From Terriglobia bacterium (GTDB lineage: Bacteria > Acidobacteriota > Vicinamibacteria > Vicinamibacterales > CAVVIG01), in NCBI GenBank assembly GCA_020073005.1, contig JAIQFX010000044.1:21047-85046 (forward strand): DNA of 64,000 nucleotides, given 5' to 3'. The notes under the pieces are model-generated. The model was not told the DNA's origin and searched no databases. It saw only the letters and a program-made list of their open reading frames with translations. The position numbers and the translations under genes are program-made. Each line of letters opens with the position of its first letter. Position 1 is the first letter of the stretch. Positions 32,131-38,880 of this stretch are shown piece by piece.

Positions 32131-33600
32131 CTACGCTCTTTCGATCCGCTTGAGTTTTTCGACGAGCGTGGTGCGCTTCAGATTGAGCAGCTTCGCGGCC
32201 TGCCCTTTGTTCCCGCCCGTGCGCTCGAGCGCGCGCTGCACGAGGTCGCGCTCGATCCCGCCGATGAAGTCGTCCAGGTCCAGTCCGCCTTCGGGCAGCG
32301 TGACCGCCGACGCCAGCGCCGCTTCCTGCGCCTGCTGAATCTCGTTCGGCAGATCGCCGGCGTCGATCTGCGCGCGGCCCGCGCTGAAGGCGACCGCGCG
32401 CTCGACCGCGTTCTCGAGCTGCCGCACGTTGCCCGGCCAGTGGTACGCCATCAGCCGGCGCATCGCGTCCTGCGACACGCTTTTGCGGACAGATCGCTCG
32501 CCTGAAAGACTCGCGCTACGTTCGCCCGCGCTACGTTCGCTCGCGCTACGTTCGCCCGCGCTACGTTCGCCCGCGCTGCGATCGCCGCTGGCGAGCTTGT
32601 CGAGGAAATGCTGGACCAGCAGCGGGATGTCCTCTTTGCGCTCGCGCAGCGGCGGCAGCTGGACCGGAATCACGTTCAGCCGGTAGAACAGGTCCTCGCG
32701 AAACGTCCCCTCGGCCACGAGCCGTCCGAGATCGCTGTTCGTTGCCGCGATCACGCGCACATCCACCTTGATGGTGTGATTCGAGTCGCCGACGCGCTCG
32801 AACTCACGCTCCTGCAGCACGCGCAGCAGCTTCATCTGCAGCGCCGCGCTCATCGTGCCGACTTCGTCGAGGAACAGCGTGCCTTTGTGCGCCTGCTCGA
32901 GCCGGCCCTGCCGGTTGCCGACGGCGCCCGTGAACGCGCCGCGGACGTGGCCGAACAGTTCGGCCTCGAGCAGCGTCTCGGGAATGGCGCTGCAATTGAG
33001 CGCGACGAACCGGTGCAGGCGCCGCGGACTGCCCTGATGGATCGCGCGCGCCACGACTTCCTTGCCGGTCCCGGTTTCGCCAGTAATAAGGATGGTGCTG
33101 CCCGTGGGCGCGACGGTTTCGAGCAGCTGAAACAGCCGCGACATCGCCTGCCCGCGTCCGACGACGCCTTCGAAGCGATCGCGTTTCTCGAGCTGCGCCC
33201 GCAGGTACGCGTTTTCCGATTTCAGCCGGCGCTGTTCGATCGCCGAGTCGAGCACGTGGAGCAGCTCGTCGATCTGAAACGGCTTGCTGACGAAATCCCA
33301 CGCGCCGCGCTTGATGGCTTCGACCGCGTCCTTCACGGTGCCGTAGCCGGTGACGACGATCGCGATGATGTCCGGATACCGTTCGACGGCGCCTTCGACG
33401 ACGGCCGAACCGTCGACGCCGGGCAAACGGAGATCAGTAATGATGATGTCGAACGCGAAGTCGGCCAGCTTGGCGAGCGCCGCTTCGCCCGTGTCGACCT
33501 GCTCGACCTGATAGCCGCGGTCCGCCAGCTGCTCCGCGATCGCCACCCGCAGAGGGGCCTCGTCTTCGACCAGCAAGAGATGTTTTGTAGAATCAGTCAT
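32131..33600 (-). CDS. NtrC-family sigma-54-dependent response regulator
   Basis: 489 residues. Receiver domain 6-120 with phosphoacceptor D56 (IITDLRLPG) and Lys107 (VSKPF). The AAA+ domain begins VVGRGQAMSRL, with Walker A GETGTGKE (174-181), GAFTGA at 221-226 for sigma-54 contact and LFLDEVGTM. A Fis-type helix-turn-helix ends the protein (GGNKGQAAKLLNLKRTTLVE). Between the AAA+ domain and the last helices an insertion of (E)RSAG units about 25 residues long is encoded by a 15-bp tandem repeat. It likely controls nearby sigma-54 genes; its kinase partner may be the hybrid kinase at 35404. Confidence 0.92.
   Translation of the reverse strand: MTDSTKHLLLVEDEAPLRVAIAEQLADRGYQVEQVDTGEAALAKLADFAFDIIITDLRLPGVDGSAVVEGAVERYPDIIAIVVTGYGTVKDAVEAIKRGAWDFVSKPFQIDELLHVLDSAIEQRRLKSENAYLRAQLEKRDRFEGVVGRGQAMSRLFQLLETVAPTGSTILITGETGTGKEVVARAIHQGSPRRLHRFVALNCSAIPETLLEAELFGHVRGAFTGAVGNRQGRLEQAHKGTLFLDEVGTMSAALQMKLLRVLQEREFERVGDSNHTIKVDVRVIAATNSDLGRLVAEGTFREDLFYRLNVIPVQLPPLRERKEDIPLLVQHFLDKLASGDRSAGERSAGERSASERSAGERSASLSGERSVRKSVSQDAMRRLMAYHWPGNVRQLENAVERAVAFSAGRAQIDAGDLPNEIQQAQEAALASAVTLPEGGLDLDDFIGGIERDLVQRALERTGGNKGQAAKLLNLKRTTLVEKLKRIERA
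32512..32586. repeat. 15-bp tandem repeat, five units, inside the NtrC-type gene
   Basis: Five consecutive 15-bp units of the form CGCGCTACGTTCGCC, the last degenerate. Read on the minus strand they encode G/S-E-R-S-A. The unit length keeps the frame, so copy-number change would only lengthen or shorten the linker. Confidence 0.9.
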
Positions 33601-34455: not shown

Positions 34456-35400
34456 ATGCGTGTTCAGCCCGTTGCCGCCAATCAGAACCGCCGTATCGTC
34501 GCCAGCTTGCCGTTTGTCGAGGCGCTGGCTCGACGAATGGCTGCGTCGATGCCGAATTCGATCGACATCGGCGATCTCGTGCAGGACGGCGTGCTCGGTC
34601 TCATCGATGCCGCGCATCGCTTCGATGAAGATCGCGGCATCAAGTTCGAGACGTTCGCGGAACGGCGCGTGCGCGGCGCGATGATCGACGCGCTTCGCAA
34701 GGACGCGTGGCCCCGCGGCGTCCGCCGCCAGCGGCGCGAGCTCGACGCGGCCCGCGAAGCGCTGCGCCGCGAGCTGGGACACGAGCCGTCGATGGCCGAC
34801 CTCGCCGCGCGCGTCGGCTCGGACGAGAAACGGCTGAGCCGGACCATCGTGCGCATCAACACGATCGAAGCGACGTCGCCGCTCGCGACGGGCGAGCACA
34901 TGGACGAGAACTCGCTGCCGACCGTGCTCGTGCCGTCGGAGCCCGACGCGCCGGACATGGCCTACGAAAAGGCCGAGACGCGCGACCGCGTGCGCGCCGC
35001 GATTCAATCGCTCCCCTGGCGCGAGCGGAAAGTGATCGGGCTCTACTACTACGGCGAAGTGACGATGAAGCAGATCGGCGCCGAGATCGGCGTCAACGAA
35101 TCGCGCGTCTCGCAGCTTCATGCGCGCGCGATCCGCCGCCTGCGCGACGCGATCGGCGACATGAACCCGCAGAAGATCGCCGAGATGCGCCGTCAGCTGA
35201 TCGCGTTCGCGGTGAAGAAGCCGGTGATGGCGAAGGCGGACGTTCGCTCTGCGTATAAGCCGGACGCGACGATGACCGCCGAGACGGTCGCCACGCCGCA
35301 CGCCGTCGTCCTGCCGTACAAGGCGACGAAACGTACGGCGCCCGTGAAGGCGACGCTCAAGATGGCGCGGTCGCGGCAGGCAGTCGCGGCGGCGAGGTAG
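34456..35400 (+). CDS. FliA/WhiG-like sigma-70 family factor
   Basis: 314 residues. Region 2 is visible as NSIDIGDLVQDGVLGLIDAAHRFDEDRGIKFETFAERRVRGAMIDALRK, in consecutive parts typical of group 3 sigma factors. Region 3 follows (RRELGHEPSMADLAARVG), then region 4 (LPWRERKVIGLYYYGEVTMKQIGAEIGVNESRVSQLHARAIRRLR). The C-terminal 75 residues, rich in Lys, Arg, Thr and Ala, are an extension beyond FliA. Its start is supported by AGGAG 9 nt upstream. No flagellar genes are present, so it may direct a signalling or development regulon instead. Confidence 0.87.
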   Translation: MRVQPVAANQNRRIVASLPFVEALARRMAASMPNSIDIGDLVQDGVLGLIDAAHRFDEDRGIKFETFAERRVRGAMIDALRKDAWPRGVRRQRRELDAAREALRRELGHEPSMADLAARVGSDEKRLSRTIVRINTIEATSPLATGEHMDENSLPTVLVPSEPDAPDMAYEKAETRDRVRAAIQSLPWRERKVIGLYYYGEVTMKQIGAEIGVNESRVSQLHARAIRRLRDAIGDMNPQKIAEMRRQLIAFAVKKPVMAKADVRSAYKPDATMTAETVATPHAVVLPYKATKRTAPVKATLKMARSRQAVAAAR

Positions 35401-35403
35401 CGG

Positions 35404-36927
35404 TCAGGAGAGGCCGTCGCGCACCGCGCGCAGCAGGTCGCCCAGGCGGAACGGTTTCGCCAGCCACCGGCAGCCGCTCTCCTGAAGAAACTTCTCCGCG
35501 TCGGTGCCGGCCACGTCACCCGTGACGAAGATCACGCGTTTGGCCAGCGCCGGCGCCGCGGACGCGAGCTCGCGCGAGAACGACTGGCCGTCGAGCCGCG
35601 GCATCTTCAAGTCACAAATCACCAGATCGAACGGCTCGGCTTTGATCTTCGCGAGCGCCTCGATGCCGTCCACCGCGTGCTGGACGACGTAGCCCGCGTC
35701 GCGCAGCGCGTCGACGACGGCGCTCGCCAGCTTCGTCTCATCCTCGACGACGAGAATCGCCGCGCCGACGACCGCCTTGACGGGCTCGGACAGGCGCGCC
35801 TTCATGCCGCCCTCCGGCCCGAGCTTCCTGCCGCTGACCGGGACCTCGACGAAGAATGACGCGCCGGCGTTCGGACGCGACTCGAGCCGGATGCGGCCGC
35901 CGTGCTCCTGCACGATCGCGTACGCGACGGTCAAGCCGAGTCCCGTCCCCTTGCCGACTTCCTTCGTGGTGAAGAACGGATCGAAGATCTTCGGCTGCAG
36001 CTCGTCCGGAATCCCAGGGCCATCGTCGTTGATCTCGAGAATGACGGATTCCTGCTCGGCGTTGTGCCACGTGCGCACGACGAGGACGCCGCGTCCGTGC
36101 GCCGACAGCATCGCCTGCTCGGCGTTGATCACGAGATTCAGCAGCACCTGCTGGAGCTGATGGCCGTCCGCGAACACCTGCGGCAGGCCGGCGGCCAGCG
36201 CGTCGATCACGCTGATGTTGGTGACGCGCTGATCGTACGCGCGCAGCGCCAGCGTTTCGCGGACCACTTGATTGATGTCCACCATCGCGCGCGTCGTCTG
36301 ACGCTTGCGGGCGAAGGTGAGCAGGTTGCGGACGATCCGTGCGGCGCGTTCGGCCTCCGACTGGATCGTCTCCACGCCGCGGCGCACCGGATCGTCGAGC
36401 GTGCGCTGCGACAACCGCTCGGCCCAGCTGAGGATCGTCGCCAGCGGATTGTTCAGCTCGTGCGCGACGCCGGACATCGTCTGGCCGAGCGCGGCCATCT
36501 TCTCCGCCTGCAGCAGCTGGTGATAAATGTCGCGCGTCTCGTCGTCGAGCTTCTTGCGCTCGCTCACGTCGCGGATCAGCGCCTCGACGCGGACCGTGCC
36601 GTCCTCCGCCGGCGGATCCGCGCGCGCCGTCAGCTCCACCCAGGCGGGATTGCCGTCCGCGCGGCGCAGGCGCATCAGATAGTTGTTCACCGATCCATCG
36701 GTCGAGAGACGCTCGACGAGCGCGACGCGCGCCTGCGGATCGACGAATCGCTCGTGATCGAACGGACGGACGTCGCCCTCCGGCGCCTCGCTCGGGTACC
36801 CGAAGATCAGTTTGAGGTGGGGATTGGCGGCAATCGTCGACGTGGTCGCGGGACCGATCGTCCCGATGTACACGCCTTCGTGCACGGCCTCGAACAGCCG
36901 CGCGAATGCCGATGCGCGTCGCTCCAC
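35404..36927 (-). CDS. PAS hybrid histidine kinase with C-terminal receiver
   Basis: 507 residues, no membrane helix. PAS-like region 8-122. DHp H-box MSGVAHELNNPLATILSWAE with H156. HATPase_c domain with ADGHQLQQVLLNLVINAEQA (N box), DDGPGIP, FDPFFTTKEVGKGTGLGL. A receiver domain occupies about 390-505 (ILVVEDETK, LVICDLKMPRLDG with the phosphoacceptor Asp). The GTG start at 36927 is only 6 nt downstream of a perfect TATAAT, so the mRNA is probably leaderless. The receiver may return phosphate to DNA-binding partners such as the NtrC-type protein. Confidence 0.9.
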   Translation of the reverse strand: MERRASAFARLFEAVHEGVYIGTIGPATTSTIAANPHLKLIFGYPSEAPEGDVRPFDHERFVDPQARVALVERLSTDGSVNNYLMRLRRADGNPAWVELTARADPPAEDGTVRVEALIRDVSERKKLDDETRDIYHQLLQAEKMAALGQTMSGVAHELNNPLATILSWAERLSQRTLDDPVRRGVETIQSEAERAARIVRNLLTFARKRQTTRAMVDINQVVRETLALRAYDQRVTNISVIDALAAGLPQVFADGHQLQQVLLNLVINAEQAMLSAHGRGVLVVRTWHNAEQESVILEINDDGPGIPDELQPKIFDPFFTTKEVGKGTGLGLTVAYAIVQEHGGRIRLESRPNAGASFFVEVPVSGRKLGPEGGMKARLSEPVKAVVGAAILVVEDETKLASAVVDALRDAGYVVQHAVDGIEALAKIKAEPFDLVICDLKMPRLDGQSFSRELASAAPALAKRVIFVTGDVAGTDAEKFLQESGCRWLAKPFRLGDLLRAVRDGLS

Positions 36928-36939: not shown

Positions 36940-36944
36940 CGGGC

Positions 36945-37011
36945 TTGGTGACTGGTGACTGGTGACTGGTGACTAAAGACGGGTGCGTTCTTTCCAGCCA
37001 CCAGCCACCAA
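36945..37011 (-). repeat. Heptamer repeat region forming a long RNA hairpin after the selenoprotein gene
   Basis: Four copies of GGTGACT (36947-36974) and, further on, an inverted array of AGCCACC units (36996-37009). In minus-strand RNA the arms at 36994-37011 and 36945-36962 pair over 18 bp, with two G-U wobbles and a 31-nt loop, starting 3 nt after the stop codon at 37015. It may act as a terminator or 3' stabiliser, although no U-tract follows. Confidence 0.6.
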
Positions 37012-37014
37012 CCC

Positions 37015-37638
37015 TCACTTCGTCGGCGCCGGCGCCGTCGGCGTATGCGTCGGATAGGTGCCCGACCACTTTTTTTCGTTCGCGGCCCGAATGTCCCGCA
37101 CCGAGGCGCCCGAGTTGTACATCTGCATCGCGTCACGCGCGACGTCCAGGCAGATGGCTCATGTCATGCCGTGCGGCTCCCACTGCGTCACGTCGCCCTT
37201 CGCGTCCCGGGCCGTGACGAAGCAATCTTCGTTGCCGCGATGTCCGGAATGCTCGCAGCCGCAGTAGCACGGCACGTAGCTCAACACTTCCGGATGCTCG
37301 GCGGCGAACTTGTACGCCGCGCGCACGGTTTCCATCGGCCGCGCCGGCGGCTCGGGATCGAAGGGCAGCGGCGGCAGATTCTCCTGAGGATGCGGACCGA
37401 GCTTCGCCGATTCCGGCGGATCGACCACGGCCGGCAGTGGCGCCGTTTGCGCGGCCGGCTGCGTCGCAGCGGGACCCGACGATCGCATGTAGACCAGCGC
37501 GCCGCCGATCACGAGAATCAGCGCGGCGCCCGCGAGCATCATCGGCATCGATGATCGCGGCGGCTCTGCCGGTGGTGTCGAGGATGCCCCCGGCCGGGCC
37601 TGCGCTTTGGCGGAAGATTTGCGACCCATCATTTTCAT
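37015..37638 (-). CDS. PCYCGC-family membrane-anchored protein, candidate selenoprotein (in-frame TGA at 37159-37161)
   Basis: 207 residues if the TGA is read as selenocysteine (U160). A basic N-terminus and one membrane helix (MPMMLAGAALILVIGGALVY, about 31-50) precede a Pro-rich linker. The folded part has VLSYVPCYCGC at 119-128, then HSGH, DCFV and QWEPHGMT. The TGA replaces the first Cys of the family's C-terminal CxxC: HGMT-U-AIC-LDVARDAMQMYNSGASVRDIR, the continuation matching the family in the same frame and ending at a normal TGA at 37015. A SECIS-like hairpin lies right after the codon. Likely an extracytoplasmic thiol/metal redox protein of unknown function. Start ATG 37638; 37650 and 37629 are alternatives. 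No Sec machinery is in this window. Confidence 0.82.
37120..37156 (-). promoter_or_regulatory. Candidate bacterial SECIS element
   Basis: Counting from the TGA on the mRNA, nt 3-9 (CAUCUGC) pair perfectly with nt 33-39 (GCAGAUG). Inside, nt 15-18 (CGUC) pair with 25-28 (GACG), leaving the loop GCGCGU, whose first G is 19 nt after the UGA. This spacing and the apical G match the known SelB-binding hairpins such as that of E. coli fdhF. Confidence 0.65.
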
Positions 37639-37680: not shown

Positions 37681-38880
37681 ATGAATCTTGTTGGGCGTCA
37701 GGACCGCCTGTTGCTCGGCGGTCTGGCCGTCGCCGTGATCGTCGTCTTCGCGCGGCCGATCGAGCGCTACGGCCTCAGCCTGGCGCGCGAAGCCGAGCGC
37801 AGCTCCGGCCTCGCCCTCGTGCCCGCGCTGCTGATTCTGGTCGCGGTTTTCCTCTTCCATCAGCAAGGCAAACGTCAGGAAGCGAGAGCGCGCACCACGG
37901 CGGCGGAAGCCGACGCGAAACAGGCGGGCGCGCGCGCCGCGGAGATGGAGCGGCTCGTCAATCTCGGTCAGGCGCTCGCCCGATCGCTCGATCTGGAAAC
38001 GATTCGCGACGCCGTGCTGCAGCACCTGCCCAAGCTCGCGGGCACCGAGGACGTCTGGATCCTTCTGCGCGTGAGCGGCCACTGGCAGGCGCTGGTCGGC
38101 CCGGCGCGCGACACGCGCCGCGAGATCGAGCGCGCGCGCGAGCACGTGGCCGATCGCGCGCTGGCCGGCGATCTCGCACCCGAGGGTCTGGCCGCCGACG
38201 GACAGTATTGCCTGCGGCTCACGGCGGGCGGGGACATCGTCGGCGTGCTCGGCGTGCCCGAGACCGACGGCCCGATCCAGGAGGCGCGGAAGCGCGTGCT
38301 GGCGACGGCCGGGGCGCTGCTCGGCATCTCGCTTCGCAACGCGCAGCTGTTCCACGAAATCCGCGAGACCAGCCTCCGCGACGGCCTGACCGGCTGCTAC
38401 AACCGCACGCACGCGCTCGAAGTGATCGACTCGGAGCTGCGCCGCGCCCGGCGATCGCAGATGCCGATGTCGCTCATCATGTTCGATCTCGATCACTTCA
38501 AGGACGTCAACGATCGCTACGGCCATCTCTGCGGCGACGCGGTGCTGGCGGGCGTCGGCGTCAAGATGCGCGACGCCCTCCGCGGCAGCGATCTGAAATG
38601 CCGGTACGGCGGCGAAGAATTTCTCGTGCTGCTGCCGGAGACGCCGCTCGAAGGCGCCAAGCGCGTCGCGGACTCGCTGCGCCGCGAGCTCGCGGACATG
38701 CGCATCACGTGGAAGGACGATTCGCTCACGGTGACGGCGAGCTTCGGCGTCTCCGTCGCGCTGCCGGCCGAAGTCGACGGCCAGGCGCTCATCGCCCGCG
38801 CGGACGCGGCCCTCTACCGCGCCAAAGATCAGGGACGCAACTGCGTCCGCCTTTCGATCGAAACCGCCGTCGTCGCATAA
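37681..38880 (+). CDS. Membrane-anchored GAF-GGDEF diguanylate cyclase
   Basis: 399 residues. Two hydrophobic segments (about 9-24 and 45-60), a coiled-coil-like linker rich in Ala/Glu (65-95), a GAF-like domain (about 95-225) and a GGDEF domain. The active site is RYGGEEF (GGEEF at 310-314), preceded by an intact RxxD inhibitory site (RGSD, 301-304) at the canonical five-residue spacing. It should make c-di-GMP with product inhibition, opposing the HD-GYP protein at 30625. It starts 42 bp from the divergent selenoprotein gene; TAAAGT at 37663-37668 is a possible -10. Confidence 0.92.
   Translation: MNLVGRQDRLLLGGLAVAVIVVFARPIERYGLSLAREAERSSGLALVPALLILVAVFLFHQQGKRQEARARTTAAEADAKQAGARAAEMERLVNLGQALARSLDLETIRDAVLQHLPKLAGTEDVWILLRVSGHWQALVGPARDTRREIERAREHVADRALAGDLAPEGLAADGQYCLRLTAGGDIVGVLGVPETDGPIQEARKRVLATAGALLGISLRNAQLFHEIRETSLRDGLTGCYNRTHALEVIDSELRRARRSQMPMSLIMFDLDHFKDVNDRYGHLCGDAVLAGVGVKMRDALRGSDLKCRYGGEEFLVLLPETPLEGAKRVADSLRRELADMRITWKDDSLTVTASFGVSVALPAEVDGQALIARADAALYRAKDQGRNCVRLSIETAVVA

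Follow-up and report, generated by a model that had tools for sequence, protein, structure and literature searches.

Members of the Pfam family PF13798 (PCYCGC) have already been catalogued as selenoproteins. The protein model NF041379 bears the name 'OS_HP4_CYCXC, CYCXC family (seleno)protein', and the accessible part of the 2026 review PMC13188914 lists OS_HP4, a hypothetical protein of the CYCXC family (PF13798), as a selenoprotein with a UxxC motif, citing the 2007 Olavius symbiont paper. OS_HP4 is also listed with UxxC in the accessible part of PMC9312934, while the available portions of PMC2398784 and PMC12013277 make no mention of the PF13798 family. Among the matches listed for literature on selenoprotein and Acidobacteri, none is about a PCYCGC protein by its title. 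For a Parageobacillus PCYCGC lipoprotein, whose gene is adjoined by that of an iron-binding protein, the function is given as unknown in the literature excerpt. Here we describe a PF13798 gene on the minus strand (37015..37638) of a 64,000-nucleotide stretch of contig JAIQFX010000044.1 from a Terriglobia bacterium (assembly GCA_020073005.1; positions 21,047 to 85,046), hereafter the window, in which the TGA codon at residue 160 is very probably decoded as selenocysteine (Sec).

The first-pass annotation of this gene had proposed a new selenoprotein candidate in a family that it took, tentatively, not to be listed among selenoproteins. The candidate stands as a very probable selenoprotein gene of a separate branch; the supposed novelty of the family does not, and a new selenoprotein family is rejected because NF041379 and the accessible part of PMC13188914 already carry PF13798. 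The window gene, whose TGA takes the place of the first Cys in CxxC, fits the entry seen in that part of PMC13188914 (one Sec, UxxC). What is new, as judged from sequence, is a distinct PF13798 branch lying below the NF041379 cut-off that has a hairpin and a gene neighbourhood of its own. The window protein scores 71 bits against NF041379, under the equivalog cut-off of 90, and all 37 TGA genes of its order (Vicinamibacterales) likewise match below the cut-off, the best of these (L061) with an E-value of 4.4e-21 and 74.8 bits. Sec in the PCYCGC family is thus not confined to the branch covered by NF041379, as 37 genomes of the order carry a TGA gene below its cut-off. A Cys gene of the same order (L012) reaches 78.8 bits, three TGA genes of the group f71 (L043-L045) score 104-112 and one Cys gene of the group f29 scores 114.

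The reading frame and the Cys/TGA column

The minus-strand frame from 37638 to 37015 reads ...SYVPCYCGCEHSGHRGNEDCFV...QWEPHGMT, TGA, AICLDVARDAMQMYNSGASVRDIRAANEKKWSGTYPTHTPTAPAPTK, TGA, as the first-pass annotation had described. Read through the first TGA, it encodes 207 residues with one predicted Sec. The in-frame TGA (37159..37161, minus strand) is the predicted Sec codon of residue 160, at the first position of UxxC, and the terminal stop (37015..37017, minus strand), also TGA, lies 47 codons beyond it. The PF13798 match (92 bits; cut-off 25) covers residues 103-201 and spans the TGA; the domain's second half is therefore in frame and recognisable, which agrees with the earlier claim that homology continues behind the codon. 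In the window's own genome (G000; 5.86 Mb in 179 contigs) this is the single PF13798 match, and it carries one TGA.

Searches for PF13798 covered 297 genomes of the phylum, of which 61 have a match, and 162 of the order, where 90 genomes hold 98 matches. All 98 order matches were aligned together with 18 of the 43 phylum-sample matches from outside the order (n=116), the remaining 25 being assessed from the stop column of the search alone. A duplicate locus (L036) was removed ahead of the alignment, and the TGA reported for L030 (G105) is its terminal stop, so that this gene was scored as Cys. At the position of the TGA the 116 acidobacterial sequences have either a Cys codon (TGC or TGT; 76 sequences) or TGA (40 sequences) and no other codon, with 37 TGA and 61 Cys in the order and 3 TGA and 15 Cys outside it. 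That the TGA replaces the first Cys of CxxC is thereby borne out, and relatives have TGA, TGT or TGC alone at this codon. Two assemblies of the same genus (G325 and G326) also have TGA at the residue-160 codon. Behind it, the Cys at +3, the Ile of the DIR motif and the two Thr of the TPT tail are each kept in all 37 TGA genes of the order. Neither TAA nor TAG was reported inside the PF13798 matches of either genome search, only TGA.

These data bear on whether the TGA could be a true stop, arisen by nonsense mutation or marking a deliberately shorter protein, with a tail that is decaying or untranslated. A truncated protein would retain the PCYCGC cluster, and databases do list the truncated form. 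Against this, the TGA recurs at one and the same codon in 40 of 116 sequences from many genera with a conserved tail behind it, and the other two stop codons are reported in no match; a true stop is therefore very unlikely. The earlier argument that a TGA on precisely this Cys codon is more than chance is strengthened by the same column. In a search of the protein database, for which the best 120 of 1898 matches were considered, 121 proteins were checked at the TGA position. P0002 and P0003, the two best-scoring proteins among the matches listed, end exactly before the TGA codon, and the other 119 have Cys there, including P0001, which is read with Cys. Ordinary gene calling would thus truncate proteins of this branch in the middle of their reactive motif, as had been foreseen for the window gene and as is seen in P0002 and P0003.

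A tree of the 116 rows implies 8 or more Cys/Sec changes, of which the starred branches force only 2, there being few columns and long branches; TGA forms occur both in the window's branch and in that covered by NF041379, but the resolution of the tree is low. Such counts of state changes cannot separate gain from loss. As the TGA genes of the order have the same frozen hairpin, described below, the history that we prefer is a single Sec gene in the ancestor of the order, which reverted to Cys several times. That close relatives alternate between TGA and Cys, and that only the TGA genes have the frozen hairpin, makes for a natural experiment on the gain and loss of Sec. Three genomes (G315, G316 and G307) have PF13798 genes of both forms, with Sec and with Cys. 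Two divergent PF13798 copies, L123 (G428) and L132 (G348), are without the second Cys of CxxC.

The hairpin and the selenocysteine machinery

Comparison of relatives reveals a potential stem-loop, GUCGCG-CGUGA-CGCGAU, with 6 base pairs and a 5-base loop, located 15 bases behind the TGA (37127..37143, minus strand). We read it as the predicted apical stem-loop of a selenocysteine insertion sequence (SECIS), to which SelB would bind. Its exact 18-base form (GTCGCG-CGTGA-CGCGAT plus the next G) is shared by 35 of the order's 37 TGA genes, whereas none of the 76 Cys genes has it; all six stem pairs can form in every one of these 37 TGA genes as compared to 3 of the 76 with Cys. The six residues at this place read VARDAM in nine Cys genes as well, each of which makes 5 of the 6 pairs. 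Within the TGA genes of the order, the mean use of the major codon is 0.994 over the five degenerate hairpin codons as against 0.657 over 35 other conserved codons, the highest value among which is 0.95. Only L121, with one changed loop base, and L127 depart from the 18-mer. In L127 other residues are encoded while the stem is kept by compensatory changes of both partners in two pairs, a thin signal of covariation that comes from one sequence and is reached by 1 of 500 shuffles. The folding energy at the window hairpin is unremarkable (z -1.5), and the fold of lowest energy is not the 6-bp stem. In the three f71 TGA genes, from outside the order, the stem is a different one, CAAGGAG-GKT-CTCCTTG.

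The hairpin also bears on the notion that an error of sequencing or assembly turned TGC or TGT into TGA. The window does come from a draft assembly, but the same TGA is found, along with the hairpin, in G325, G326 and 34 further genomes of the order, which makes such an error next to impossible.

The genome of the window possesses the components of the Sec pathway, and selA, selB, selC (tRNA-Sec) and selD, which had been named as genes to look for, are all present. SelA scores 452.9 bits, SelB scores 43.3 bits, above its cut-off, tRNA-Sec scores 60.4 bits with the anticodon tca, and SelD scores 349.4 bits with one TGA within the match. This selD gene (L053, G000:C133, match 1501-2430) has the in-frame TGA near its start, in the context TGC GCC GGT TGA, so that SelD of the window genome is predicted from its sequence to be a selenoprotein itself.

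Codes in which TGA is recoded or leaky exist in other bacteria, and the TGA of the PCYCGC gene might accordingly be read as another amino acid, such as Trp or Arg, through general recoding or leaky read-through that involves no selenium. In the window genome TGA serves as an ordinary stop, both at the end of the PCYCGC gene itself and in 5 of 11 neighbouring genes. Moreover, no residue other than Cys aligns with the TGA, and a complete Sec machinery is encoded; general recoding is therefore extremely unlikely.

Across the order, a strong SelA match is present in 35 of 37 genomes with a TGA gene versus 33 of 53 Cys-only genomes (Fisher p 0.0004), where a strong match excludes six genomes whose best match has an E-value worse than 1e-15. 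The two TGA-gene genomes that have no strong SelA are G301 and G393, the latter being among these six. The tRNA-Sec was sought (E 1e-8) in 57 of the 90 order genomes, namely all 37 with a TGA gene and the 20 Cys-only ones that lack a strong SelA. It exceeds the family cut-off in 34 of the 37 as compared to 9 of the 20, and 55 bits in 32 of the 37 as compared to 1 of the 20 (G376); a group of matches near 50 bits may represent other tRNAs. Across the phylum sample, a match to the SelB wing domain is present in 7 of 8 TGA-gene genomes and 24 of the other 53 (p 0.053); the lone TGA genome missing it (G277) has SelA and tRNA-Sec.

We consider the window gene a very probable selenoprotein gene because of the column that admits only Cys and TGA, the presence of the Sec machinery, the shared hairpin and its frozen codons. 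At the hairpin, SelB would deliver Sec-tRNA to the UGA; the two presumably do read the residue-160 codon.

Predicted protein, gene neighbourhood and possible function

The full-length protein is predicted to consist of an N-terminal membrane helix followed by a small helical domain that carries CxCxC, H, C, H and UxxC. The helix (model residues 31-53; 37480..37548, minus strand) is predicted from an AlphaFold2 model together with hydropathy, which peaks at 2.26 from residue 33. The N-terminus ahead of the helix is positively charged, and we therefore infer that the Cys/Sec domain would lie outside the cytoplasm, anchored by the helix. The motif P-C-x-C-x-C (residues 123-128), together with G132 and H133 (37240..37272, minus strand), is invariant in an alignment of 66 sequences, all of which match PF13798 at E 1. 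The selenol would be expected to make the UxxC site more reactive. Sequence comparison gave no relatives of solved structure at E 1, and a Foldseek search with the predicted model returned no matches at E 0.001 and 37 at E 10.

A remote likeness to CcmH, the thiol protein of cytochrome c maturation (PF03918), is indicated by profile comparison (hhalign 67%, score 35.0), with none of 100 column shuffles scoring above 18.7 and the reversed profile at 21.3. No PF03918 match is listed for any of the 66 members at E 1. As compared to CcmH, the PCYCGC members have more Cys and His and a longer loop, and in-frame stops are absent from the 25 aligned CcmH rows. Three acidobacterial CcmH relatives (L200, L213 and L216) have the pattern CxCGC ... 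CNHxGC, which resembles the Cys pattern of PCYCGC.

Some divergent relatives of the window gene are located next to genes of metal efflux. The Sec-form gene L127 (in L155, G427:C26:52000-66000) lies directly behind genes for a protein of outer-membrane efflux (OEP), a CusB-type protein (HlyD_D23 with the heavy-metal-binding domain HMBD) and an RND pump, and the Cys-form gene L107 (in L175) lies behind CusB-type and RND genes. G348 has two Cys genes: that in L171 is situated behind RND and P-type ATPase genes, and that in L170 is flanked by genes for cation efflux and for a P-type ATPase with a heavy-metal domain. Among plasmids, 32 records have a match; five were opened, and four of these have genes for heavy-metal ATPase, ArsR/SmtB, copper-binding proteins, CopD or multicopper oxidase nearby, the fifth (Thermomicrobium) having no heavy-metal or copper genes near the match. 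The divergent copies L174, L176 and L177 have no metal-type neighbours as judged by eye, and the window gene does not lie within a metal-efflux operon in the neighbourhood that was read.

The metal-efflux neighbours of some relatives and the remote resemblance to CcmH suggest extracytoplasmic thiol/selenol redox chemistry or the handling of soft metals. We put such a function first because of the metal-efflux neighbours of the relatives, and hold it tentatively; the domain might bind copper(I) or another soft metal, or reduce disulfides, and the expression or the signal of the PCYCGC protein might be linked to the hybrid histidine kinase whose gene follows (see below). This offers a lead for a Pfam family of unknown function, towards extracytoplasmic metal or thiol chemistry with a possible kinship to CcmH. 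A bolder proposal, that the PCYCGC proteins form an extracytoplasmic selenol/thiol module derived from CcmH, a lost offshoot of its thiol-reductant fold handling copper(I) or other soft metals, and that one acidobacterial branch of them has acquired a Sec in the reactive site, its own order-wide SECIS and a coupling to a hybrid kinase, appears to us doubtful.

The genes around the window gene were compared in 36 contexts, which include 2 duplicates, 8 contexts from outside the order and 26 different contexts of the order; the domains of the neighbours were verified on the copies in the window. Directly downstream lies a hybrid histidine kinase with HisKA, HATPase and receiver domains (35404..36927, minus strand). 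It follows on the same strand in 24 of the 26 order contexts (16 of 17 with a Sec form and 8 of 9 with a Cys form) and adjoins in none of the 8 outside the order. The gap between the two genes (36940-37010) is filled by short repeats (ggttggtggctggtggctgg; agtcaccagtcaccagtcacc). A sigma-70-type sigma factor (34456..35400, plus strand) and an NtrC-type response regulator with receiver, sigma-54 interaction and HTH_8 domains (32131..33600, minus strand) are conserved neighbours, the former, on the other strand, in 21 and the latter in 23 of the 36 contexts, duplicates included. Between the AAA core and the C-terminal part of the NtrC-type regulator is a repeated ERSAG/ERSAS stretch. The divergent neighbour, a GGDEF protein (37681..38880, plus strand), recurs in 8 of the 36 contexts, of which one is a partial match and two come from one genome.

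The kinase raises the alternative that the Sec protein is an extramembrane redox or metal sensor for it, rather than an enzyme or a metal carrier. Its position directly downstream on the same strand in nearly all order contexts, with Sec and Cys forms alike, is in line with such a role. However, the kinase comprises HisKA, HATPase and receiver domains and has no membrane-like stretch (highest 19-residue hydropathy 1.33), so that direct contact with a domain outside the membrane is hard to see, and synteny within one order may be plain inheritance. A sensor function thus seems unlikely to us, and soft-metal or thiol/selenol chemistry remains the reading that we prefer.

Comparison with known systems

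Ordinary PCYCGC motif-containing proteins and lipoproteins, of the Bacillales and others, share PF13798 with the window protein, as seen from the names given by annotators and from a tblastn match. They differ from it in being ordinary annotated genes, which by their names are not selenoproteins, and in standing, in four of the five plasmid records opened, near genes for heavy-metal ATPase, ArsR or copper proteins. With bacterial selenoproteins directed by a SECIS, such as the predicted SelD of the same genome, the window gene shares an in-frame TGA, a hairpin close behind it and the accompanying SelA, SelB, tRNA-Sec and SelD, whereas the sequence of its hairpin is, as far as we have looked, peculiar to the branch. 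OS_HP4 (NF041379) has the same PCYC-x-C domain and the Sec at the same first position of UxxC. In comparison to OS_HP4, the window branch contains an extra segment between DCF and HG, a hairpin of different sequence and a hybrid kinase after the gene.
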